A stretch of DNA of 52,658 bases from Nitrospirota bacterium (GTDB taxonomy: Bacteria; Nitrospirota; Thermodesulfovibrionia; Thermodesulfovibrionales; SM23-35), in the NCBI GenBank assembly GCA_013388435.1, contig JACAFE010000024.1, forward strand, positions 1 to 52,658, given 5' to 3'. A program made the translations under genes and the position numbers. Of this stretch, positions 11,586 to 45,023 are shown piece after piece. Position 1 is the stretch's first letter. Every line of letters begins with the position of its first letter. The notes under the pieces are model-generated. The model did not search any database and was not told where the DNA came from. It was given only the letters and a program-made list of their open reading frames with translations.

Positions 11586-11846
11586 ATGAATACTTACGCA
11601 ATTATTACTTTTCATAATACTCATTTTGCTTTGAAAGCAAAAAAATATTTTGAAAAATATGGTTTAAAATCAGACACCATACCAGTACCGAGAGAATTTA
11701 GCTCAGAATGTGGGTTTTGTAGTAAAATTTTATGGAAAGATAAAAATATAGCTGAAGAAATAATGAAAAAAAACAAAATTATTTATGAAAGTATTTATCG
11801 CTGGGAAAGAGATGAAAAAAAAGAAAAAAAATTTAATTTTGTATAG
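11586..11846 (+). CDS. DUF3343 family putative Se/S carrier-like protein
   Basis: The 86-residue product begins YAIITFHNTHFALKAKKYFEK and has a central SSECGFC motif. This matches the DUF3343 layout: a ferredoxin-like small domain with a conserved Cys after a pair of serines. These proteins commonly neighbour yedF and other selenium-trait genes and are proposed to carry selenium or sulfur, though this is unproven. The first 77 residues are family-like and the Lys-rich tail is not. It lies 12 bp before yedF and likely starts the operon DUF3343-yedF-desulfurase. Its own ribosome-binding site is weak (AATAAGAAAAAAC). Confidence 0.8.
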   Translation: MNTYAIITFHNTHFALKAKKYFEKYGLKSDTIPVPREFSSECGFCSKILWKDKNIAEEIMKKNKIIYESIYRWERDEKKEKKFNFV

Positions 11847-11858
11847 AAGGAGGAGCAA

Positions 11859-12470
11859 ATGCCGATTGAAATAGATGCAAGAGGCCTACCCTGTCCACAA
11901 CCTGTTATAAAAACAAAAGAGGCATTGGAGAAAGCCAATGGAGAAGAATTAACAATTATTTTAAGCACATCTGAATCAAGGGACAATGTTCTAAGATTTT
12001 TAAAGAATTCAGGTATTGAAATTGATAAAATTGAAGAAAAAAATGGTGTTTTTTATATATTTACAAAAAAAACACATAAATTATCAAATAATGTTAAACA
12101 AGAAGATTATGTATGTTCTACGACTCAGATTACTTTTGGAACAACTATTTTTATAAATAAAGATCGAATTGGACATGGAAATGATGAATTGGGTAAAAAT
12201 CTTATAAAAGCTTTTATTTCAACCATAAAAGATTTGTCCGTACAACCCAGGACATTATGTTTTATGAATAGCGGAGTAAAACTTACGATTAATGGAGCAG
12301 AAACTGTTCCTCATCTTAAAAATTTAGAAGAAAAAGGCATCGAAATTCTTGTATGTGGTACATGCCTGAGCTTTTACAATATTAAGGATAAATTGGCAGT
12401 TGGTAAAATATCAAATATGTATGATATTTCTGAGGCAATGTTGAAATCCTCCAAAGTTATCACAATATAA
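11859..12470 (+). CDS. yedF: Selenium metabolism protein YedF
   Basis: A two-domain protein of 203 residues. The N-terminal TusA/SirA-like domain (about 1-70) carries the CPxP sulfur/selenium-carrier motif RGLPCPQP, with the reactive Cys at residue 12. The C-terminal domain (about 95-203) is DsrE-like, with the typical GHGNDELGKNLIKAF and VCGTCLSFYNI segments. This fusion is the YedF type that tracks the selenium-utilisation trait, so a role in selenium trafficking is likely, but the chemistry is not established. An AGGAGGAG site gives strong support to the ATG. Its stop overlaps the desulfurase start by 1 nt. Confidence 0.88.
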   Translation: MPIEIDARGLPCPQPVIKTKEALEKANGEELTIILSTSESRDNVLRFLKNSGIEIDKIEEKNGVFYIFTKKTHKLSNNVKQEDYVCSTTQITFGTTIFINKDRIGHGNDELGKNLIKAFISTIKDLSVQPRTLCFMNSGVKLTINGAETVPHLKNLEEKGIEILVCGTCLSFYNIKDKLAVGKISNMYDISEAMLKSSKVITI

Positions 12471-13627
12471 TGAGGAAAAAAATCATTTATTTTGATAATG
12501 CAGCCACATCAGGAATTAAGCCTCCTTCTGTAATTAAAGCTATATGTGATTGTTTAAAAAAAAATAATGCCAATCCAGGAAGATCAGGTCATATTCTTTC
12601 TGTTAAAGCCGCTGAAATAATCTATAATTGTCGTGAAAAAATAGGTGAATTATTTAAATTTGATAATACCGAAAATATAATTCTTACGAAGAACGCGACT
12701 GAATCACTTAATATTGTCATTAATGGTTTATTAAATAAAGGAGACGAAGTTATTACAACTTCAATGGAACATAATTCTGTATTGAGACCTCTAACTTATT
12801 TAAAGAAAAAAAAGAATATAAAAATAAAAATGGTCAGGGCAGACCTTAATGGTTTTATAAATCCAGCAGATATTTTAACTTCAATAACAGATAAAACAAA
12901 ACTCATAGTCATCACTGCTGCATCAAATGTTACAGGTACTAAGATGGATATAGAAAAAGTAAGAGAAATCGCCCATTCTAATGGCGTAAAGATTCTTGTA
13001 GATGCTGCACAGGGAGCAGGTACAATAAAAATTAACTTAAAAGAATCCCCATTTGATTTTCTTGCTATTACAGGGCATAAACACCTTTTCGGTCCTCAGG
13101 GAACAGGCGCTTTGATTATTAAAGATAGTGAAGAAATCGAACCTTTAATGTTCGGCGGCACAGGCAGTCAATCAGAAAAAATTATTCATCCTGATTTTCT
13201 ACCCGACAAATTTGAGTCTGGCACGCTTAATACGCCTGGGTTTGCAGGATTATCTGCAGGAATTGATTTTATAATTAAAAAAGGCATTGATAATGTAATC
13301 AATTATGAAAGACAATTAATTAAATACTTAACTGAAAAATTAATGGAAATCCACGAAATTAAAGTATATGCTCCTTTTGTTAATAGAGTTGCAACTTTAT
13401 CTTTTAATATAAATGGTGCACAACCATCAGATATAGCAGATTATCTGGACAAGAAACACAGTATCTGTGTACGTTCAGGTCTTCATTGTGCACCTGAAGC
13501 TCATAGAACCATAAATACTTTTCCATATGGAACTGTAAGGTTTTCATTGTCTTACTTCAACACTCAAAAGGAAATAGATATTTCTATTAATGCTTTAAAA
13601 TCGTTCATCATGAAGAATAAGAATTAA
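12470..13627 (+). CDS. Cysteine desulfurase / selenocysteine lyase-like aminotransferase V (EF2568 type)
   Basis: A PLP enzyme of 385 residues in the class-V aminotransferase group. The start IYFDNAATS is typical. The PLP-binding lysine is in ITGHKHLFGPQGTG at about residue 200, and the catalytic Cys is in VRSGLHCAPEAH at about 340. The closest subtype I recognise is the EF2568-like family, found in selenium-cofactor loci beside yedF. It probably mobilises S or Se from Cys or Sec and may hand it to YedF. It is co-translated with yedF and overlaps the convergent selB by 4 nt at the stop codons. Confidence 0.88.
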   Translation: MRKKIIYFDNAATSGIKPPSVIKAICDCLKKNNANPGRSGHILSVKAAEIIYNCREKIGELFKFDNTENIILTKNATESLNIVINGLLNKGDEVITTSMEHNSVLRPLTYLKKKKNIKIKMVRADLNGFINPADILTSITDKTKLIVITAASNVTGTKMDIEKVREIAHSNGVKILVDAAQGAGTIKINLKESPFDFLAITGHKHLFGPQGTGALIIKDSEEIEPLMFGGTGSQSEKIIHPDFLPDKFESGTLNTPGFAGLSAGIDFIIKKGIDNVINYERQLIKYLTEKLMEIHEIKVYAPFVNRVATLSFNINGAQPSDIADYLDKKHSICVRSGLHCAPEAHRTINTFPYGTVRFSLSYFNTQKEIDISINALKSFIMKNKN

Positions 13628-15498
13628 TTAATTAAATGCCTCGTATCTCCCACTCTTTTTGTAATTTTAATGGAATCAAAATATTCGAGAAAATGTATTG
13701 CGCACTTCCTATTTGTAGGAAAAATATCTTTGAATTCTTTAACTGTAATGAAATGTTTTTCTCTGAAAAAGTTTCTAAGATTTTCAAGACCTTTTTGATA
13801 AGAATCTGTTTTAACATAAATAGAATTGCTAATTTTTATTACAAGACCTTCCTTTTCCATTAATTTCAATAAATTTAGTATATACTTTTGTTCAATATTA
13901 AGAATCTTGCTCATTTCCTCAGTATTTGGGGGCTCAGTACCTGTTTTATCAAGTATTCTGAGTATTAATTCTTTATTGTTTTCGTCGCTCTTATTCAATA
14001 AAGGCTTAAAATTTGAAAGTCTGACAATATCTTTTTCAATGTTAATATTATTTATAGATGATAAAAGATTGTTGAATATTTTAACATCAACTTTTAAATA
14101 ATTCCTAAGTTCTTCTTTGGGAATTCCAGGTTTTATCGGATTATTTTTATGGTATTCCTTTAATTTTTTTGTGATCAAGTCTTGAAATATTTTAACTGCT
14201 TCTGAATGAAATATAATATCATCATACTGGTAAACTAATTTCTTAGACCTCAATTCATTCACAGATAAAAGTATATCGGGTATATCTGCATTTATCCATC
14301 CCTCTAATGAAGATAATTTTATACCGGTAATTGATGCTCTTTTTATTCTTAAGGCGATTTTTTCGGTTAAAGTGCCATTATCAAGAAAAGTTAATTCATT
14401 AATGCTTCTTCGATGACTAATTTTATATGATGAAGGGTCAAGTATTTCACCGCCACCTATTGTATCAACAGGTGAGACTCTTCTTATTATGAATCTATCG
14501 CCTGACATCGCAATTACTGGTTCATTAAGTCTAAATTGACAGTAACATGTCTCTCCGGGTTTTAATTCGTTCCTTCCATACAATATAATTCTTGCAGTTT
14601 TTTCTGAAGTCCCTATATGAAAATGCACAATATCTCTGCTTTTCAGATTTTTTACGTGAGACAGCAGTGTTACCTTCGCATCAATCTGATATGCTGGAGT
14701 AAATTTATCAATACTAACAACAGTATCTCCCCTTTTTAACAAATCCCTGTCAACCCCCTGAAGATTTATTGCTACTCTCTGTCCGGCATAAGCTTCGATA
14801 ACTCCTTGACCGTGGCAATGCAACCCTCTAATTTTAGTTCTTATTTTACATGGAAGAATATCAACTTCTTCTCCGGGACTTACTTTTCCGGAAAAGACAG
14901 TTCCAGTTACTACTGTGCCAAAACCTTTGAGAGTGAAAACTCTATCGATAGGCAATCTAAAAATTCCTTTTTTTGACTTTGGACTAACCTTTAAAGATTC
15001 TTGCTTGATTTTTTCCTTTAATAAGTCAATATTCTCCATTGTAACTGTAGAAACATTAATTATTTCTGAATTTTCAAGAAAGGAATTTTTTAGAAATTTT
15101 CTTACATCATCTCTTACAAGTTCAAGCCATTCTTTATCTACGAGATCGCATTTGGTAATAACAACAATCCCTGATTTTATTTTTAAAAGATTACATATAT
15201 TTAAATGTTCAACACTCTGGGGCATTACACCTTCATCAGCAGCTATGACAAAAAGGACAATATCTATACCGCCAGCACCTGCAAGCATATTTCGTACAAG
15301 ACGTTCATGTCCTGGTACATCAACTATTCCAACAGTTAAACCATCAGGATACTTTAGGTATGCAAACCCAAGATCTATAGTTATTCCGCGTTCCTTTTCC
15401 TCTTTTAGTCTATCGGGATCAATACCTGTTAATGCTTTGACCAGGGCGCTTTTTCCATGATCAATATGTCCTGCGGTTCCTAAAATTATATGATGCAT
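13624..15498 (-). CDS. selB: Selenocysteine-specific elongation factor SelB
   Basis: SelB replaces EF-Tu for Sec-tRNA and binds a SECIS hairpin in the mRNA. The 624-residue protein is full length (E. coli SelB is about 614). The GTPase motifs are all intact: [11 protein letters not shown] at 7-17, [15 protein letters not shown] and TKCD. Two beta-barrel domains (about 175-360) follow, and then a long C-terminal winged-helix region (about 370-624) that in E. coli binds the SECIS element. The start at 15498 is set by the conserved [16 protein letters not shown]-terminus. A longer frame runs back through the tRNA gene and is an artefact. No good Shine-Dalgarno site is visible in the 37-nt gap to the tRNA end. 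selA and selD are not in the window. Confidence 0.95.
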
Positions 15499-15535: not shown

Positions 15536-15631
15536 TGGAGAGGGGTAGTGGGAATCGAACCCACCATAGCTTCTTGTCCAGAGCATCCACTGGTTTTGCA
15601 GACCAGGCGGGGCCCAGCCCCGATACCCCTC
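15536..15631 (-). tRNA. tRNA-Sec-shaped tRNA with cysteine anticodon GCA and U73 (selC-like)
   Basis: On the minus strand the 96-nt gene (CCA encoded, 15536-15538) folds as follows. The acceptor stem has 8 pairs (GAGGGGTA with TACCCCTC), abutting a 5-bp T stem (GTGGG/CCCAC) with loop TTCGATT. This is the 8+5 geometry of bacterial tRNA-Sec rather than 7+5. The D arm is a G+C-rich hairpin of 5-6 bp (CGGGG/CCCCG). The anticodon stem CTGGT/ACCAG encloses loop CTGCAAA, so the anticodon is GCA. The variable region is 25 nt, far longer than in tRNA-Cys. The discriminator is U73, as in tRNA-Cys; tRNA-Sec normally has G73 and anticodon UCA. It lies 37 nt before selB on the same strand, so the two are probably co-transcribed. 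Cysteinylation by CysRS seems likely from these identity bases, but this is inference. Confidence 0.88.
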
Positions 15632-15850
15632 ATCTTTATTGTATTATTGATTATTATTATAAGTAAAATAGCTTTTTTCTATTGTATATTCTTTTAATAT
15701 AGATTGTTTTTTAATTTTCTGAGACTAATATCTGATCAGTTTATTATTTTTCTTTATTGCTCTTCTGTATTAAAGAATTCAGATTTATACAATTGACTAA
15801 GCAAAGATATTTTTGTTAACGTATTAAATCAATCTAACTCAGGAGATTTT

Positions 15851-16270
15851 ATGACAGATAAAAATGTTAGTACGCATAAAAATAGCAATAAGAAAAAAAT
15901 AAATTTATCCCCCAGACAACAGAAGATCCAGGAAATTAAGAAAAAACTTTTATCTCAACGAAAAGAATTACTTCTTGGAGCCTTAGAGGCATTAAATGAA
16001 CTTCCCGGACAAACTATTTTTCCTGATCTCGGCGATCAGGCAACTGCGGAAATTGATCGTAATTTCATGCTCAGACTTAAAGGCAGAGAGCAAAAACTTT
16101 TGAAGAAAATTGATGAAGCCATAGACAGGATTGAACAAGGAACTTTTGGAATTTGTGATAGATGTGGACAGGAAATAAATATTAAAAGACTTGAAGCAAG
16201 ACCTGTTACAACTATGTGTATAGAATGCAAAACTCTTCAGGAGGAAGAAGAAAAGCTAATGGAGACATAG
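15851..16270 (+). CDS. DksA/TraR C4-type zinc-finger protein
   Basis: The 139-residue product has a long helical hairpin followed by a C-terminal zinc finger with CDRCGQEI and CIEC (four Cys). This is the plan of DksA-like proteins that enter the RNA polymerase secondary channel and tune transcription, often with ppGpp. The N-terminal 20 residues are Lys/Asn/Ser-rich and not conserved. The coiled-coil tip reads FPDLGDQATAEIDRNF, consistent with a DksA/YocK-type protein, though the exact tip acidic pair of E. coli DksA is not clear. The start has an AGGAG site 5 nt upstream. It is a single-gene unit and lies divergent from the selB tRNA. Confidence 0.85.
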   Translation: MTDKNVSTHKNSNKKKINLSPRQQKIQEIKKKLLSQRKELLLGALEALNELPGQTIFPDLGDQATAEIDRNFMLRLKGREQKLLKKIDEAIDRIEQGTFGICDRCGQEINIKRLEARPVTTMCIECKTLQEEEEKLMET

Positions 16271-22249: not shown

Positions 22250-22693
22250 ATGAAAGCATTAATACAGAGAGTAAAACAGGCTCACGTAGATATCGAAGGT
22301 AAAACCATCGCAAAGATCTCTGAAGGAATTCTTCTTTTCCTTGGAATTGAAAAAGGTGACACTGATTCTGACATTGAATATCTTGTTAAAAAGGTATCAT
22401 CATTGAGAATATTTGAAGATGAAAACAGAAAAATGAATCTTTCACTTAAGGATGTCAACGGAGAAATTCTTGTTGTATCTCAGTTTACATTATCAGCTGA
22501 CTGCAGGAAAGGGAACAGACCATCTTTTGATAAAGCTGAATTACCAGAAAAAGCAAAAGAAATGTATCTCAAATTTATTAAAAAACTCAATGAAAATGAA
22601 TTGAGGGTTCAGACAGGTGAGTTTGCTGCTTTTATGCAAATTCATTCAATTAATAACGGTCCTGTTACAATTTTTCTGAATTCTTCAAGATGA
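22250..22693 (+). CDS. dtd: D-aminoacyl-tRNA deacylase
   Basis: The 147-residue protein hydrolyses D-amino acids, and mis-added glycine, from tRNA. The family pattern is clear: start [30 protein letters not shown] in the middle, and the NNGPVTIFL cis-Gly-Pro motif at the end. I place the start at 22250. An upstream in-frame ATG at 22235 would add VLNS and overlap the GH57 gene. It overlaps glgB by 4 nt (ATGA). Confidence 0.93.
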
Positions 22694-24900
22694 AAACAAT
22701 CAATCTTAAGGAACACATTAAACTTATAATAAATGCAAAACATTGGGATCCTTTTATGGTTCTCGGTATGCATCCTTTCGAAGAAAATGGAAAAAAAATG
22801 ATTGTTGTTAGAGCATTCCTCTCTGAAGCAGCGAAAGCATCAGTTGTAGATACAAATACCAAAAAGATTTATGAAATGACCCTTATTCATAAAGCAGGTT
22901 TTTTCGAAGTTGTATTTGGTGATAGAAAAAATATTTTCAAGTATATGCTTAGAGTTACAACAAAAGAAGAAAAAGAACTGGAATTTTATGACCCATATTG
23001 TTTCCTGCCTGTACTTGGTGATTTTGATTTGTATTTAATCGGAGAGGGCACACATCTGAATTCTTATGAAAAATTAGGTGCTCATATAATTAAACATAAT
23101 GGCATTGAAGGCACACATTTTGCGGTATGGGCTCCTAATGCAAAACGTGTCAGTATAATAGGTGATTTTAATAACTGGGACAGCAGAAGACATCAAATGA
23201 GAGTTCTCGGTTCTTCAGGAATATGGGAGATTTTCATTCCAGGATTAGGGGAAGGTGAAATTTATAAATTCGAGATACTCGCGAAAAATGGGAAGGATGT
23301 ATTTGTAAAATCAGACCCTTATGCATTTTATTCTGAACTTAGACCAAAAAGCGCATCAATTGTCTGGAATATCAATAAATATCAATGGAATGATAGTGAA
23401 TGGATAAATAAACGTAAAGAAATAAATCTTCTTGAATCGCCTGTTTCTATATATGAAGTTCATCTCGGATCATGGATGAGGGTTCCGGAAGATGGTAACA
23501 GATACCTTACCTATAGAGAATATTCTGAAAAACTTGTTAATTATGTCAAGGATATGGGATATACGCATATTGAACTTCTGCCTGTTACAGAACATCCTTT
23601 CGATGGTTCATGGGGTTATCAAACAATAGGATATTATGCTGTTACAAGCAGATTTGGTACACCTGAGGATTTCATGTATTTTGTTGATATATGTCATCAA
23701 AATAATATAGGAGTAATACTTGATTGGGCTCCTGGACATTTTCCCACTGATGGGCATGGGCTCGGTTTTTTTGATGGCACATGTCTTTATGAACATGAGG
23801 ATCCGAGGCTTGGCTATCATCCTGATTGGGGAACAAAAATATTTAATTATGGAAGAAAAGAAGTAAAAAACTTTCTTATTTCAAATGCGTTATTCTGGTT
23901 AGAAAAATATCATATAGACGGTTTGAGGGTTGATGCTGTTGCATCGATGCTTTATCTTGATTATTCACGTAAAGAAGGGGAATGGATCCCTAATAAATTT
24001 GGTGGCAGAGAGAACCTCGATGCCATAGATTTTATTCAGGATTTTAATAAAATAACACATGGTAAATTCCCTGGAATATTAACTATAGCTGAAGAATCAA
24101 CTGCGTGGCCTGGGGTATCAAAACCTGTTTATCTTGGCGGGCTTGGTTTCAGTATGAAATGGAATATGGGATGGATGCATGACATGCTTGAATACTTTTC
24201 CAGAGATCCTGTTTATAGAAAATACCATCATAATAATCTTACATTTAGTCTGCTTTATGCATTTTCCGAAAACTTTGTGCTTGTTTTATCCCATGATGAA
24301 GTTGTTCATGGAAAATGTTCTATGCTGAATAAGATGCCCGGAGATATGTGGCAAAAATTCGCAAATCTTAGGGCACTTTATGGATTTATGTTTACTCATC
24401 CTGGTAAAAAATTGATGTTTATGGGTAATGAAATAGGACAATGGGATGAATGGAATCACGATAAAAGTCTTGACTGGCATTTGCTTAATTATACTCCTCA
24501 TAAGTGTTTGCAAAAGTACTTAATGGATTTAAACATTATTTATAAATCAGAGCCTTCCCTATTTGAATTAGATTACAGTTATAAAGGATTTGAGTGGATT
24601 GATTTTAGAGATGCTGATAGCAGCATTATCTCTTTTATAAGAAAAGCCAGAAATTCTGAAGATCATCTTGTAATAGTATGCAATTTCACACCTGTACCGA
24701 GAAAAAATTACCGTTTTGGAGTTCCATCAATGTGTTTTTATAAAGAGATATTAAATAGTGATTCCCGGATTTATTGGGGGAGCAATATGGGAAATTCAGG
24801 CGGTGTATTTTCAGAAAATATCCCATGGCATAAACAGCCGTTCTCGATAAATATTACATTGCCTCCATTATCTGTAATTATATTTAAACCCATGAAATGA
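22690..24900 (+). CDS. glgB: 1,4-alpha-glucan branching enzyme GlgB
   Basis: A GH13 branching enzyme that makes alpha-1,6 branches in glycogen. The 736-residue product has the N-terminal extra domain ([11 protein letters not shown]), a CBM48 module ([23 protein letters not shown]), and the catalytic barrel. The nucleophile Asp is in [15 protein letters not shown], the acid Glu in [12 protein letters not shown], and the third acid in [10 protein letters not shown]. It is the last gene of the operon from gcvH and ends 28 bp before the convergent HAD gene. No clear terminator hairpin is visible in that gap. Confidence 0.95.
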
Positions 24901-24928
24901 TAGACTTATAACATCTGAATTGCTTTGT

Positions 24929-25639
24929 CTAATTTAAGACTTTTCTTAGAACTTCATCAAGTTCATAAAAAGCATTAAAGCAACCATCCGGTTTATAGCC
25001 ATTATATTCTTTATTCTCACTCCTGAATAGTATAAACTTCATCCCTGCTCTTTTTGCTGCCGTAAGATCTTTATAAGGATTATCTCCTATATAAACTGAA
25101 TCTTCTGGTAAAACACCAAGTTTTTCCATAGCAAGCTGGAAAAGTCTTGTATCTGGCTTCTTATAACCATATCTTGATGATAGCAGTCTGAGTTTAAAGA
25201 ACTGATCGAGTCCTAAAATAGCTATTTCGGGTTCTGCAAAAACCCACTGAGCATCAGAAATAATAGCTGTGGAATATTTAGTATTCAAACTTGCAAGTGT
25301 ATCATACAAACCTTCGAATGCACCAAATTGTCTTATTGTCAAAGCTCTAAAAAGCATTGTTATATCAATAATAATACCTCTTGTATATTTCTTTTTACCG
25401 TATCTGTTCATAATATCAAAGAAGACTTTATAAACATCTACTTCAGGATAAGTTTCTTTACTTAAAGATAGATATTCTTGAACACCATCAAAGAATGATT
25501 TCTTCAATTCATCCGGCGGAATATTCACATAGTGATAAGAAAGATAACGCGAAAGCATTTCATAAACCCAGGGATCATTTTCATCTGTTCTGATGTTAAT
25601 TAATGTACCGTAAAGATCAAAAAATAAAGCTTTTTTCAT
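24929..25639 (-). CDS. HAD-superfamily hydrolase
   Basis: The 236-residue protein begins KKALFFDLYGTL, giving the DxYGT nucleophile motif I of haloacid dehalogenase-like phosphatases. Later motifs include IISDAQW (motif II), KKPDTRLFQ (motif III Lys) and VYIGDNPYKDLTAAKRAG (motif IV). The helical cap of about 100 residues places it with the phosphoglycolate phosphatase or dehalogenase type. The substrate is unknown. The start at 25639 shares ATGA with the phosphotransferase stop. The upstream ATG at 25666 would add nine residues inside that gene. Confidence 0.85.
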   Translation of the reverse strand: MKKALFFDLYGTLINIRTDENDPWVYEMLSRYLSYHYVNIPPDELKKSFFDGVQEYLSLSKETYPEVDVYKVFFDIMNRYGKKKYTRGIIIDITMLFRALTIRQFGAFEGLYDTLASLNTKYSTAIISDAQWVFAEPEIAILGLDQFFKLRLLSSRYGYKKPDTRLFQLAMEKLGVLPEDSVYIGDNPYKDLTAAKRAGMKFILFRSENKEYNGYKPDGCFNAFYELDEVLRKVLN

Positions 25640-26637
25640 AAAAGTTTTAAACCCCATTTCAGACATTGTTCTGCCTCATAAACAAGGCGTTTTCTATATT
25701 CCCAGTGCAAATAATTGTTTCTTGCTATTCTTAATTCAGTCATTGCCATATAAAAAGGATTGCGTTGTGTAATTTCTTTAAATGCTTTCTTAGAATCATG
25801 AAAATGTTTTGCATAATTAATTAAAAAATGCCTGATAAATGGTTCTGATAAGTAAGGATTTCCTGTTCTCCATAAAAATGCATGTTTTATTTCTCCACAG
25901 ACCATTCCTATATCGTAAGCAGGGTCAGAGTCTTTCATCCGTTCAAGATCTATTGCAATAACATAACCAGCTTCAGAAAAGATAAAATTTGTCGGTGTAG
26001 CATCTCCGTGAACAAGGGAATTTTTCGTATAAGAAAATTGTTCTTTGTTTAACCACTTATCCATTAACCTGAGCAAATATTTTCTTTGATTGTCTGATAT
26101 TACTGTTTGTTTCAGGAGTTTGCTGGTAATTTTCTGGAAATATTGATTGATTGGTTCAATCTTAAAAATCTTATCAGACCTTGTTCTATCATGGAAAACA
26201 TATAGAAAATCTGCCAGTCTTTCAAGCTTATCTTTTAATTGATTTGACTTCCCCTCAAATATAGCTTTTTTGAGATAATAATCAAGATTTTTTCCGGTTA
26301 TAAATTCTTCTGTCAGCGCAAGCCCTATTCTTTCATCTTTGCTTATGGGTTTAACAACATAATTAGGGAAAACATCAAAACCATAGCTTCTGATTTTATT
26401 CAGGTTATCATATTCTCCTTTTATTCTAAGTACCCTATCAATTTTTACGTCATTTAATTTAAAAAATTTACCCACTATAGAGATGTTAGTATTTTCTTCA
26501 GTATATTTATAAACATTACTTGAGGACATTCTATCAACACGAAAAATTGGATATTTTGTATTATCACATACATGAGAAAACAGAATTTCATATAAAGGGT
26601 CAGAATATTCGAGCCTTCCAAGATAAGTTGTATTCAT
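25636..26637 (-). CDS. Aminoglycoside phosphotransferase/choline kinase-like protein
   Basis: A 333-residue kinase-fold protein. The Brenner motif reads LVHGDATPTNFIF (catalytic Asp and Asn), followed by IAIDLERMKDSDPAYDIG (metal-binding Asp). The N-lobe includes a likely ATP-binding Lys in ISIVGKFFKL. This is the APH fold used for small-molecule or sugar phosphorylation. Nothing points to drug resistance. I chose ATG 26637 because AAAGGG lies 8 nt upstream and it leaves a 4-bp gap after rlpA. The longer frame begins at 26658. Pairing with a HAD phosphatase gene suggests a linked phosphorylation and dephosphorylation step, which is inference. Confidence 0.78.
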   Translation of the reverse strand: MNTTYLGRLEYSDPLYEILFSHVCDNTKYPIFRVDRMSSSNVYKYTEENTNISIVGKFFKLNDVKIDRVLRIKGEYDNLNKIRSYGFDVFPNYVVKPISKDERIGLALTEEFITGKNLDYYLKKAIFEGKSNQLKDKLERLADFLYVFHDRTRSDKIFKIEPINQYFQKITSKLLKQTVISDNQRKYLLRLMDKWLNKEQFSYTKNSLVHGDATPTNFIFSEAGYVIAIDLERMKDSDPAYDIGMVCGEIKHAFLWRTGNPYLSEPFIRHFLINYAKHFHDSKKAFKEITQRNPFYMAMTELRIARNNYLHWEYRKRLVYEAEQCLKWGLKLL

Positions 26638-26641
26638 AAAA

Positions 26642-27283
26642 TCAAACCCTTTCTTCATACTTGGTTATAAAAACGCTATAACCTTCGTTAGCAAGAATTT
26701 TACCTAATTTCTTAACTTCATTAATTTCAATAAACTTTCCCAATCTTACTCTAAAATAGTTTTCGCCATTAATACTTGTCTGCTGCAAATATACCTCTTT
26801 ATATTTTAATTCAAGCGCAGTCTTAAGCCTTACAGCATTTGATTTATCTTTGAAAGAACCAATCTGTAAAGTAAATGGCCCTGATGAAGAAAGATATCTT
26901 ACTTCTTTTATATAAGATTCATCCCTTCCTAAATACTCTATTATTACATTTGATGTGCCTGCAGGGATTAATCCTATTTCTTTTGCCGCAGCATAGGATA
27001 AATCTATATCCCGTCCTGATACAAAAGGGCCACGATCATTTACAATACAACTAATGCTTTTATTATTCATAACATTCGTAACTTTCAATTTTGTTCCAAA
27101 AGGATATTCTCTATGGGCGCACGTATTGGCATACATATTGAAAATCTCGCCTGAAGATGTTGGTTTTCCGTGAAATTCAGAGCCATACCACGAAGCAACA
27201 GCATAAGAAGATCTGTAATGTGAAGCACATGAAACTAAGAGAATATTCAAAGAAATAAGTGCAAGAACTTTTATATATTTCAT
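26642..27283 (-). CDS. rlpA: RlpA-like septal lytic transglycosylase, lipoprotein
   Basis: A lipoprotein signal peptide with lipobox LVSC (lipidated Cys19) leads into a double-psi beta-barrel (about 28-120). This carries VASWYGSEFHGKPTSSGE and VNDRGPFVSGRDIDLS, with the conserved Asp and His-rich region seen in RlpA lytic enzymes. A SPOR domain (about 133-210, FTLQIGSFKDKSNA) binds denuded septal peptidoglycan. Length is 213 residues, normal for a compact RlpA. It is probably an outer-membrane-anchored cell-separation enzyme. It leads the rlpA-phosphotransferase-HAD operon. Confidence 0.9.
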   Translation of the reverse strand: MKYIKVLALISLNILLVSCASHYRSSYAVASWYGSEFHGKPTSSGEIFNMYANTCAHREYPFGTKLKVTNVMNNKSISCIVNDRGPFVSGRDIDLSYAAAKEIGLIPAGTSNVIIEYLGRDESYIKEVRYLSSSGPFTLQIGSFKDKSNAVRLKTALELKYKEVYLQQTSINGENYFRVRLGKFIEINEVKKLGKILANEGYSVFITKYEERV

Positions 27284-35601: not shown

Positions 35602-35771
35602 TCTGATGAAATAGTATTAATTTTTATAAAATATTTTTAGGTATTATAATTTGCTATAATTTACAATAATTTATATTAATTATGTTAAACTTATACTTTA
35701 ACTTTAAGGCAATATGTAGAAAATAATTTTCTTTATAGATTTCTAATTATTTAAAAAAGAAGGAAATATTT

Positions 35772-36281
35772 TCAGTTGGCAGGAATTTTTTTCTCTAATC
35801 TTCTGATATTATTTGTTATTGATACAACTTTTTGTGGTTCCATTGAAGCCATTATTGCTGCTGCTTTTTTTGGTTTCATTCTGCGAATTATTTCGGTAGC
35901 AGTATCATCGTCAATAATATTCAATTTTGCTGCAGCATCTTCTGAAGGCATACCCTCATAAACTTTAACAATATAATCAAGTTTTTCAGTCTGTATTTTC
36001 TCAAGCCTCTTTAACTTAGAGTCTATTTCAGCAAGAATTTTAGAGTATTTTTCTATTTTTTCTTCAATATCTTTTTTGATAGAATCAAGCTTTTTCTCTT
36101 CTTTTGCTAAAAAATCCTCTTTAGCTTTGAGTTCCTTTTGTTTAGTTTCTATATATTTAACCATATCATCCTGAGCAAATAATAAAGTGTTTAAAATTGT
36201 TAGGAAAAGACTTAATGCAAAAATACAGATTAAAATTAAACACTTGCTATCAGATATTTCTTTGTTAAATATTTTTAACAT
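35772..36281 (-). CDS. MotE-like protein, flagellar/MgtE-N-like
   Basis: The 169-residue product has an N-terminal membrane anchor (about 13-36), a long Lys/Glu coiled coil (45-105) and a C-terminal MgtE intracellular N-like domain (VKVYEGMPSEDAAAKLNIIDDDTATEIIRRMKPKKAAAIMASMEP). This plan matches MotE, a periplasmic chaperone for the stator partner MotC in alphaproteobacteria. In other phyla the family is regularly found after fliJ with unknown role. It overlaps the fliJ stop by one base and is the last gene of the flgB-to-motE run. Confidence 0.75.
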   Translation of the reverse strand: MLKIFNKEISDSKCLILICIFALSLFLTILNTLLFAQDDMVKYIETKQKELKAKEDFLAKEEKKLDSIKKDIEEKIEKYSKILAEIDSKLKRLEKIQTEKLDYIVKVYEGMPSEDAAAKLNIIDDDTATEIIRRMKPKKAAAIMASMEPQKVVSITNNIRRLEKKIPAN

Positions 36282-42461: not shown

Positions 42462-42591
42462 ATAACAGAACTCCTTTTCCAATCATTTCCAATATGATAT
42501 TTATTTATTTTCTCCTGATTAACATGATTTTCGGCCACCGAGATGTCTTTATTATTTCGTTTGATATAATTCAAAATACAATAACTTATGT

Positions 42592-43878
42592 TCATGGATG
42601 TTCCTGTATTTTGTATTCATTTAATTTGTTTCTGATAGTTCTTACACTAACACCAAGTTTTTTTGCTGCCTTTGTTTTATTGCCGCCGGCTTCCTTAAGT
42701 GTCTGAATTATAAGCTCTTTTTCCATTTCCTTTATGCTCCCTGCCTGTACCTGCATCTTTTCATAGTCATCAAACATAAAATGTTCGCACTTTATAGTTT
42801 CACCATCGCACAAGAAGACAGCTCTTTGAATTGTGTTTTCTAACTCTCTTACATTTCCATTCCATTGCTTTCTCTTAATAAGGTCGAGTGCATCCTCTGA
42901 AAATCCGTTTATTTTCTTTCCTGCAAGACCTGAATATTTCTTCATAAAATGCATTGAAAGAAAAACAATATCATCAGGTCTTTCTCTTAAAGGAGGAACC
43001 TTCAAAGGAAAAACACTGAGCCTGTAAAAAAGATCTTCCCTGAATCTTGATTCAGCGCATTCTTTTTTGAGATCTCTATTTGTTGTTGCGATAACCCTGA
43101 CATCTATATTTATAGGTTCTCTACCACCTATTCTGTCAACTTCCTTCTCTTGAAGGACTCTTAATAATTTAGCCTGAAGTGTCATTGACATCTCCCCTAT
43201 CTCATCGAGCAAAATAGTTCCACCATTAGCTAACTCAAATTTCCCTTTTTTCCTGTCGATAGCACCCGTAAAAGCTCCTTTTTCATAACCGAAAAGTTCT
43301 GATTCAAGGAGATTATCAGGAATTGCCGCACAATTTACAGCTATAAAAGGTTTTTCCGACCTCTTGCTGAATTTATGTATATACCTTGCAAGAAGTTCTT
43401 TTCCTGTTCCGCTCTCACCATGAATTAAGACTGTAATATCACTTGCAGCAAGATTACCAGCAAGAGTAATAATTTTCTTCATTTCAGGATCAACAGTTAA
43501 TATTTCTTTTTCAATGTATGTTCTTTTAATAACAGAATCGATCATTTCTTTTAATGAATCAAATGAAAAAGGTTTTTGTAGATAATCAGCAGCTCCTTCT
43601 TTCATTGATTGCACCGCATTATCTACAGTTCCGAATCCTGTTATTACAAGCACAGGAAGATTTCCAATTTTGCTTCTAATTTCTTTCAAAAGTGAAAGAC
43701 CGTCCATTTTGGGCATATTCATATCAGTAACTACCATTGAATAATTGGCATTCCTAAGTTTATCAAGCGCATTCAGACCATTTTCACATATGGTTGTATC
43801 GTAGCCCATCCTCTGTATTGCCTCGTTAAGAGCAATTCTCATTTGAGGGTCATCATCAACAATCAATACAGGCTTCAT
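42592..43878 (-). CDS. FlgR-like sigma-54-dependent response regulator
   Basis: A 428-residue NtrC-type activator. The receiver domain has LIVDDD and TDMNMPKMDG with the phospho-acceptor Asp. The AAA+ domain has GESGTGKELLAR, GAFTGA (the sigma-54 contact loop) and LDEIGEMS. A Fis-type helix-turn-helix ends it (GGNKTKAAKKLGVSVRTIRNKL). The start at 43878 has an AAAGGAGG site and an ATGA overlap with the kinase. It probably activates the sigma-54 promoters seen before the flagellar genes. Confidence 0.92.
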   Translation of the reverse strand: MKPVLIVDDDPQMRIALNEAIQRMGYDTTICENGLNALDKLRNANYSMVVTDMNMPKMDGLSLLKEIRSKIGNLPVLVITGFGTVDNAVQSMKEGAADYLQKPFSFDSLKEMIDSVIKRTYIEKEILTVDPEMKKIITLAGNLAASDITVLIHGESGTGKELLARYIHKFSKRSEKPFIAVNCAAIPDNLLESELFGYEKGAFTGAIDRKKGKFELANGGTILLDEIGEMSMTLQAKLLRVLQEKEVDRIGGREPINIDVRVIATTNRDLKKECAESRFREDLFYRLSVFPLKVPPLRERPDDIVFLSMHFMKKYSGLAGKKINGFSEDALDLIKRKQWNGNVRELENTIQRAVFLCDGETIKCEHFMFDDYEKMQVQAGSIKEMEKELIIQTLKEAGGNKTKAAKKLGVSVRTIRNKLNEYKIQEHP

Positions 43879-45023
43879 TTTTCCTCCTTTATAGGGAAAC
43901 AAAGACTAAAAATACTTCCTTTGTTAATTTTGCTTTTTACTTTTATATATCCTGAATGAGCTTGCATTATTGTTGAAGCAATAGCAAGTCCAAGACCTGT
44001 ACCTTTTTCTTTTGTACTGAAAAAAGGATTAAATATCTTTTCAAGTATATTTTCATCAATTCCATAGCCTGTATCCCCTATTTCAAGGCAATGCATATCA
44101 TAATCTTTTGTAATTGATATTGAGAGAATTCCTCCTTCGTGCATCGCCTGTATAGCATTAACCATAATATTCACAATAGCCTGTTTTATAAGTTCAGCGT
44201 CACCAGTAATTATGCAGTCTTTTAATGATTGGTTTATTTTTATTTCCCTTGTTTCTATCAAAGGTAAAAACATCTTAATACAGTTTTCTGTTATACATTT
44301 TAAATTCAAAGGCTTCATAACAGGTTTACTCGGCCGGGCAAAGTAGAGCATGTTATTAAGTATGCTATTCAGATTATTTATCCCTGTTGCTATTCCATTT
44401 GCGAGTTCTCTTTTTGATATATCTTCAAGGTCATTTGCGAGCATGCTTGCATATAAAGAAATGCTGCACAACGGGTTTCTTATCTCATGCACAATTTTCG
44501 CAGACATCTCTCCCATTGCGATTAATCTCTGGTTTCTTTCCTGTTGTTGTTCAAGTTCCCGAAGGCGTGTAATATCCTTTATGAGTATAACACTGCCTTT
44601 TAAGTTATTATTTATGTGTCTAATGTCATATCTTGAGATGATTACTCTGTATTCTATGCCTCTTGATGTTATTAAAGTATCAGTATTATCCTGAATAATT
44701 TTCAGGTTTAAATCCTTAAATTTTCTGCCAATTGCTTGAATCAGTTTTATATCAAGAAATTCTTCAGCGGATTTATTCATCATAGTAATTCTGTCATCTG
44801 AATCCATAACAATAATTGCTTCCTCAAGACTACAAAGAATTGCATTAAGATACTCCCTGTTTTTTTCAGCCTCTTCAAGTGCTTTTTTGAGTTCCTTGTT
44901 TTTCTGTTCGAGTTCTGCTGTAAGATAAGTTACTTTCTCATTTAAAGTTTGATAGTAATTCTCAAGACTTTTTGATGCAATCGCAAAATTATGAAAAGCT
45001 TCACTTAATTTTTCGGTACTCAC
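43875..45023 (-). CDS. FlgS-like PAS histidine kinase (soluble)
   Basis: A 382-residue kinase with no transmembrane helix. It has a coiled-coil lead (15-60), a PAS domain (about 60-155), a HisKA domain with phospho-His in MGEMSAKIVHEIRNPL near 195, and the ATPase domain with NIMVNAIQAM, GDTGYGIDE and GTGLGLAI. A cytoplasmic kinase beside a FlgR-type regulator is the plan of FlgS/FleS, which senses assembly state rather than an outside ligand. GTG start, directly after the TPR gene stop. Confidence 0.88.
   Translation of the reverse strand: MSTEKLSEAFHNFAIASKSLENYYQTLNEKVTYLTAELEQKNKELKKALEEAEKNREYLNAILCSLEEAIIVMDSDDRITMMNKSAEEFLDIKLIQAIGRKFKDLNLKIIQDNTDTLITSRGIEYRVIISRYDIRHINNNLKGSVILIKDITRLRELEQQQERNQRLIAMGEMSAKIVHEIRNPLCSISLYASMLANDLEDISKRELANGIATGINNLNSILNNMLYFARPSKPVMKPLNLKCITENCIKMFLPLIETREIKINQSLKDCIITGDAELIKQAIVNIMVNAIQAMHEGGILSISITKDYDMHCLEIGDTGYGIDENILEKIFNPFFSTKEKGTGLGLAIASTIMQAHSGYIKVKSKINKGSIFSLCFPIKEEK

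Follow-up and report, generated by a model that had tools for sequence, protein, structure and literature searches.

Which amino acid is carried by the tRNA encoded at 15536-15631, and which codon does it read? The question is raised by a gene located in the window (the whole 52,658-nucleotide stretch of Nitrospirota DNA that was analysed), in which a tRNA-Sec-like body is combined with the anticodon GCA and the discriminator base U73. The gene and its selenium-related neighbours are as follows.

15536..15631, minus strand: tRNA-ReC (selC* tRNA-Cys) gene; 8/5 tRNA-Sec-like body, GCA, U73, encoded CCA
13624..15498, minus strand: SelB paralogue (SelB*), 624 aa; TIGR00475 at 380 bits; Pfam GTP_EFTU, SelB-wing_2, and SelB-wing_3
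12470..13627, plus strand: cysteine desulfurase related to the selenocysteine lyase SclA; TIGR01977 at 451 bits
11859..12470, plus strand: yedF, sulfurtransferase-like selenium metabolism protein; TIGR03527 at 217 bits; Pfam TusA and DsrE
11586..11846, plus strand: putative Se/S carrier protein-like, 86 aa; Pfam PF11823 at 71.6 bits

On the minus strand, 15536-15631 reads GAGGGGTA...TACCCCTC-T-CCA. The acceptor stem contains eight pairs (GAGGGGUA/UACCCCUC), the first being G1:C72, and the T stem contains 5 bp (GUGGG/CCCAC) below a T loop of UUCGAUU. The anticodon loop CUGCAAA, with anticodon GCA, is carried on a 5-bp stem, the variable region spans 25 nt, the discriminator is U73, and CCA is encoded in the gene. 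Each element reported by the first-pass annotation (8+5 stems, 25-nt variable region, CTGCAAA loop, U73, and CCA) was recovered when this strand was read again. ARAGORN called the gene a tRNA-Cys (gca) with ends at exactly 15536-15631, and Rfam assigned 15540-15631 to tRNA-Sec (RF01852), scoring 57.7 bits where the cut-off is 47, a match that far exceeds chance; the general tRNA model was absent at 15540-15631 among the Rfam matches listed. The covariance model sided with tRNA-Sec, and the 7+5 branch and short variable loop of a canonical tRNA-Cys were not found, the stems being 8+5 and the variable region long. The D arm is GC-rich and tRNA-Sec-like, and its loop is shorter by one base than in the Rfam model. 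The remaining arms form a mosaic, as the T arm has 18 consecutive nt in common with the tRNA-Sec of the same genome, and the anticodon arm has 13 consecutive nt (GGTCTGCAAAACC) in common with its tRNA-Cys. Together with the two program calls, this upholds the earlier proposal that a tRNA-Sec skeleton bears the identity elements of tRNA-Cys. Free minimum-energy folding returned a non-cloverleaf structure and is little informative for this tRNA, so compensatory changes and the alignment to the covariance model served as the basis for the structure. Promoter and terminator scanning gave matches no more frequent than expected by chance.

The tRNA is identical (96/96 nt) in the genome of a sister species (G001), in which the 150 nt upstream are just 69% identical. 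Genes of this type were searched for in 176 genomes of the same Nitrospirota order using an exact pattern (CTGCAAA, a long variable arm, a T arm, and TCCA), which matched 54 genomes. Two of these matches (G173 and G031) were recognized on inspection as chance joins with an ordinary tRNA, leaving a tRNA-ReC-type gene in 52 of the 176 genomes; with the pattern reversed as a control, not one of the 176 was matched. When 71 distinct tRNA-ReC-type genes with an 8/5 arm were compared, compensatory changes affecting both sides were observed at most pairs of the acceptor, T, and anticodon stems. A sequencing error at GCA or U73, which had been named as an outcome that would undo the annotation, is excluded because the identical gene is present in the sister species and such genes recur across the order.

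Judged by its fold and identity elements, the gene belongs to a published class, selC* tRNA-Cys, as the first-pass annotation had suspected. The later name of this class, tRNA-ReC, reportedly comes from Vargas-Rodriguez et al. 2018 (RNA Biol. 15:471). The class selC* tRNA-Cys (Mukai et al. 2017, Nucleic Acids Res. 45:2776) is described as having U73, GCA, and a tRNA-Sec-like body, and it is known from Firmicutes, Thermodesulfobacteria, Nitrospirae, and Proteobacteria (PMC7609411). The window gene has the same body, anticodon, and discriminator, it coexists with a normal tRNA-Sec and the Sec machinery, and a second selB lies downstream of it; anaerobes including Nitrospirae are likewise among the hosts of the published class. 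In PMC7609411 the feature singled out as most striking in that class is an 8/4 arm modified by an unpaired A51a, whereas the arm of the window gene is plain 8/5 with no bulge. Given that the A51a bulge is not needed for charging by CysRS* (PMC7609411), its absence can be read as a local variant, and the bulge as a typical rather than required feature of the class. The tested example of tRNA-ReC is from Desulfotomaculum nigrificans, and genes of the Desulfotomaculum type have an extra T-stem base that the window gene is without.

A wider contig census of GCA/U73 tRNA-Sec-like genes covered 80 loci listed of at least 118. Among the listed loci, the arm is plain 8/5 in Nitrospirota members, those of the Desulfotomaculum type contain an extra T-stem base (TCCGG/CCGAC), and those of the Desulfacinum type show the published bulge, GG[A]GG/CCCC. 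Genes with GCA and U73 in a tRNA-Sec-like body were also seen in Sulfobacillus (L114, L173), in Actinomycetes and Thermoleophilia (L100, L155), and in Chloroflexota, Dehalococcoidia (L138, L161). Several of these six loci fall outside the phyla given in PMC7609411 and are perhaps additional lineages of the class.

The start codon of selB* is located 37 nt downstream of the tRNA on the same strand, and the GTPase, domain 2, beta-barrel, and winged-helix domains of SelB* are all intact. The desulfurase gene is convergent with selB* and is preceded by yedF and the putative Se/S carrier gene; its product scored 332 bits with the SclA model NF040779, under that model's cut-off. Going by their predicted products, the tRNA, selB*, the SclA-like desulfurase, yedF, and the putative Se/S carrier make up a selenium gene cluster. 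The tRNA was also found directly upstream of selB* in G001, G005 (two loci), G009, and G014. These six SelB* proteins, that of the window genome included, form one clade (support 88/99) nested among the SelB of the family, pointing to one duplication within the host's Nitrospirota family, with bootstrap below 95 and some branches long. Between the window genome and G001, dN/dS is 0.09 for SelB* and 0.074 for canonical SelB, values that indicate purifying selection on SelB*. The selB* genes of the published account lie downstream of selC* in two delta-proteobacterial orders, Syntrophobacterales and Desulfobacterales (PMC7609411), whereas the selB* described here is a family-specific duplicate of Nitrospirota with no cysS* adjacent. 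As in the selC* (UCA), selB*, and cysS* operon of Desulfobacterales, selC* stands beside selB*; that operon, however, has UCA, A1:U72, and cysS* downstream, whereas the window has GCA, G1:C72, and no linked cysS*, the genes beyond selB* being the cysteine desulfurase and yedF. Separately, neighbourhoods with tRNA-ReC and selB were observed at L099, L123, L128, L139, L168, and L176, in delta-proteobacterial, actinobacterial (Geothermocultor), and other MAGs, and the four SelB proteins of these that were placed in the tree (L099, L128, L139, and L176) fall outside the Nitrospirota SelB* group.

Loss of SECIS binding in SelB* was considered and rejected for five of the six copies, in which the C-terminal, SECIS-binding winged helices are kept. 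In these five, WH4 is altered at 7-11 of the 32 positions that are otherwise conserved. All six have in common a change of R360 to I or M, and SelB* keeps the conserved sequence motif that surrounds the pocket arginine (E. coli IDRAFTVKGAGLVVTGT). Loss does hold for the sixth copy, at G005:C142 (L083 2455-4171), where SelB* is cut to 524 aa and is without the SECIS-binding winged helix. The tRNA-ReC gene beside it, a second copy in that genome, has a mismatched T stem, and the pair appears to be either decaying or a variant independent of SECIS. On another contig (G018:C203; L283 from 5149), an intact tRNA-ReC adjoins a selB* remnant consisting of the first 22 codons, so SelB* can go while the tRNA remains; in G003 and G008 no SelB adjoins tRNA-ReC. 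SelB* is thus dispensable, as seen in these three genomes and in the shortened G005 copy. Elsewhere in the order tRNA-ReC mostly has no adjoining SelB, and for this reason a single SelB probably serves both tRNA-Sec and tRNA-ReC there.

The rest of the genome was examined for a second selC with a UCA anticodon, a check proposed in the first-pass annotation. A normal tRNA-Sec (UCA, G73) was found, along with a normal tRNA-Cys in a separate 75-nt gene, one selA, the second (canonical) selB, and a full-length cysS, whose product (CysRS) has 486 aa. An fdhA gene for formate dehydrogenase (G000:C58, L284; TGA at locus 1942-1944) contains one in-frame TGA within the active-site motif ...HCARY-U-HSASVAG..., and downstream of this TGA is a hairpin with the loop GGUCU, which we take to resemble the SECIS of E. 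coli fdhF. Because the Sec system is complete in this genome, the gene at 15536-15631 is an extra tRNA. A Cys-type fdhA homologue on a further contig (C66) has a TGT codon and no obvious SECIS loop. In the window, candidates for an in-frame TGA at 22690-24903, 35751-36281, and 42586-43902 were scanned and gave no sign of a selenoprotein; the scan with TGA taken as Sec covered these three of five candidates, the other two (15704-16270 and 25600-26658) being read-through extensions of known ORFs.

We consider it probable that the housekeeping CysRS charges this tRNA, that SelB* or SelB delivers it, and that Cys thereby replaces Sec at SECIS-marked UGA codons. U73 and GCA are established CysRS identity elements, and because of them the housekeeping CysRS would be expected to load tRNA-ReC with cysteine. 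The 13-bp acceptor/T branch would keep tRNA-ReC off EF-Tu and make it a SelB substrate; this branch and the neighbouring SelB* are the grounds for proposing SelB delivery. SelB*, and possibly canonical SelB too, would then bring Cys-tRNA to ribosomes paused at a SECIS-marked UGA, for example that of fdhA, where Cys would be inserted for Sec. Pairing of the GCA anticodon with UGA would leave a mismatch at the wobble position, which counts against a UGA reading, and the dispensability of SelB* also weighs against this scheme. UGA is nevertheless the codon suggested, because a tested relative reads it and because fdhA retains its TGA in the tRNA-bearing genomes of the host's family. According to PMC11415595, a tRNA-Sec-like tRNA-Cys (GCA) is handled by SelB and inserts Cys at Sec UGA codons, as shown in E. 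coli. The retention of TGA offers weak support, because nearly all relatives keep it: whether tRNA-ReC is present or absent, almost every genome of the order has SelB and a UGA-containing fdhA, so their co-occurrence with the tRNA is no proof of a UGA target. By analogy with the GCA relatives, and with UGA kept in the family's fdhA, the earlier proposal that UGC/UGU would be read rather than UGA is not favoured. CysRS*/SelC* has been posited as a route used when selenium is scarce (PMC9437257), and we hypothesize that Cys-for-Sec insertion by tRNA-ReC would likewise be a fallback, probably under selenium shortage.

Cysteine could instead be directed to its own codons, either through SelB* and tRNA-ReC acting as a separate channel at UGC/UGU near SelB*-specific hairpins, or through tRNA-ReC acting as a minor Cys isoacceptor at ordinary Cys codons. 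UGC and UGU match the GCA anticodon perfectly, and the WH4 changes, the R360 replacement, and the long branches of SelB* would fit a shifted RNA target. This reading is judged unlikely, however, as use of EF-Tu is disfavoured by the 13-bp acceptor branch (PMC7609411), an extra isoacceptor is unneeded where a normal tRNA-Cys is present, and, short of a genome-wide screen, no gene combining a Cys codon with a SECIS-like hairpin was identified. A broader form, to which we give a lower probability again, would make SelB* and tRNA-ReC an orthogonal channel with its own hairpins, placing Cys at codons that canonical SelB leaves unserved, UGC/UGU included; if true, two SelB-dependent codes would operate in one cell.

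A different charging enzyme was also considered, since the same genome encodes a truncated CysRS.

G000:C54:4361-5587 (locus L046 1498-2727), minus strand: CysRS paralogue, about 409 aa, without an anticodon-binding domain

As in Desulfobacterales, this protein could be a dedicated CysRS* for the tRNA; it resembles CysRS* in having no anticodon-binding domain, and within the family the paralogue and the tRNA overlap in 6/8 genomes (p 0.04 by a one-sided Fisher test, with no correction for relatedness). Across the 176 genomes of the order, however, the paralogue is present in 35, the tRNA in 52, and both in 11 against about 10 expected (Fisher p 0.47). Among 30 homologues (L216-L245), WHIEC is changed to WN[VI]QD, HHENE to HHDYx, and GGG to CGG, with KMSKS intact; residues at zinc-ligand positions are altered in 30/30. 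The neighbours are unrelated, the paralogue usually adjoining a MATE-type transporter or phosphoglucomutase-like gene (assigned by eye) and not the tRNA. With no order-wide association, changed zinc-site residues, and unrelated neighbours, the paralogue was dropped as the CysRS* of this system, a role that we regard as very improbable. We think it more likely that the paralogue is some other enzyme, perhaps a CysRS-like ligase not yet described; the likely charger is the ordinary CysRS. A UCA/U73 opal tRNA was likewise tried as the missing CysRS* partner and set aside, as the 176 genomes contained a single match, which lies on a small contig alongside a divergent SelB. On that contig (G018:C279; L277, 4089 bases; L276), from a Nitrospirota MAG, the UCA/U73 selC* has a Desulfobacterales-like U72 and lies upstream of a SelB about 30% identical; it represents contamination or transfer.

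Insertion of selenocysteine at UGC/UGU by a recoded tRNA-Sec has a precedent in Aeromonas salmonicida (Mukai et al. 2016), where Cys codons are translated as Sec by a tRNA that has a tRNA-Sec body and the GCA anticodon of tRNA-Cys (PMC11415595). Here too the body scores as tRNA-Sec and selA is present. A tRNA of the A. salmonicida type, however, would be expected to replace tRNA-Sec and to keep G73 for SerRS, whereas position 73 of the window gene is U and a UCA/G73 tRNA-Sec is present alongside it, and fdhA still has TGA in the ReC-bearing genomes of the family. G73 is present in tRNA-Sec of all three domains and is critical for its serylation (PMC5330540), which also leaves unsupported the earlier suggestion of charging with Ser followed by conversion to Sec. 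The chance that the window tRNA works in this way is put as very slight, below that of the dedicated CysRS*. Equally slight is the chance of a regulatory decoy or decaying relic with no decoding role, which the patchy spread (52/176 genomes) and the decayed partners in G018 and G005 would fit, but against which stand the identical sister-species gene despite diverged flanks, the compensatory stem changes, and the low dN/dS of SelB*.

The interest of the gene rests on the family-specific SelB* duplication and on the broad 8/5 Nitrospirota set. The tRNA-ReC is common in one Nitrospirota order, in which it takes the plain 8/5 form, and in one family SelB has been duplicated and one copy coupled to tRNA-ReC. 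With SelB and SelB*, and tRNA-Sec and tRNA-ReC, in a single genome, these organisms hold natural paralogue pairs in which programmed Cys-for-Sec substitution and SECIS specificity may be tested directly.
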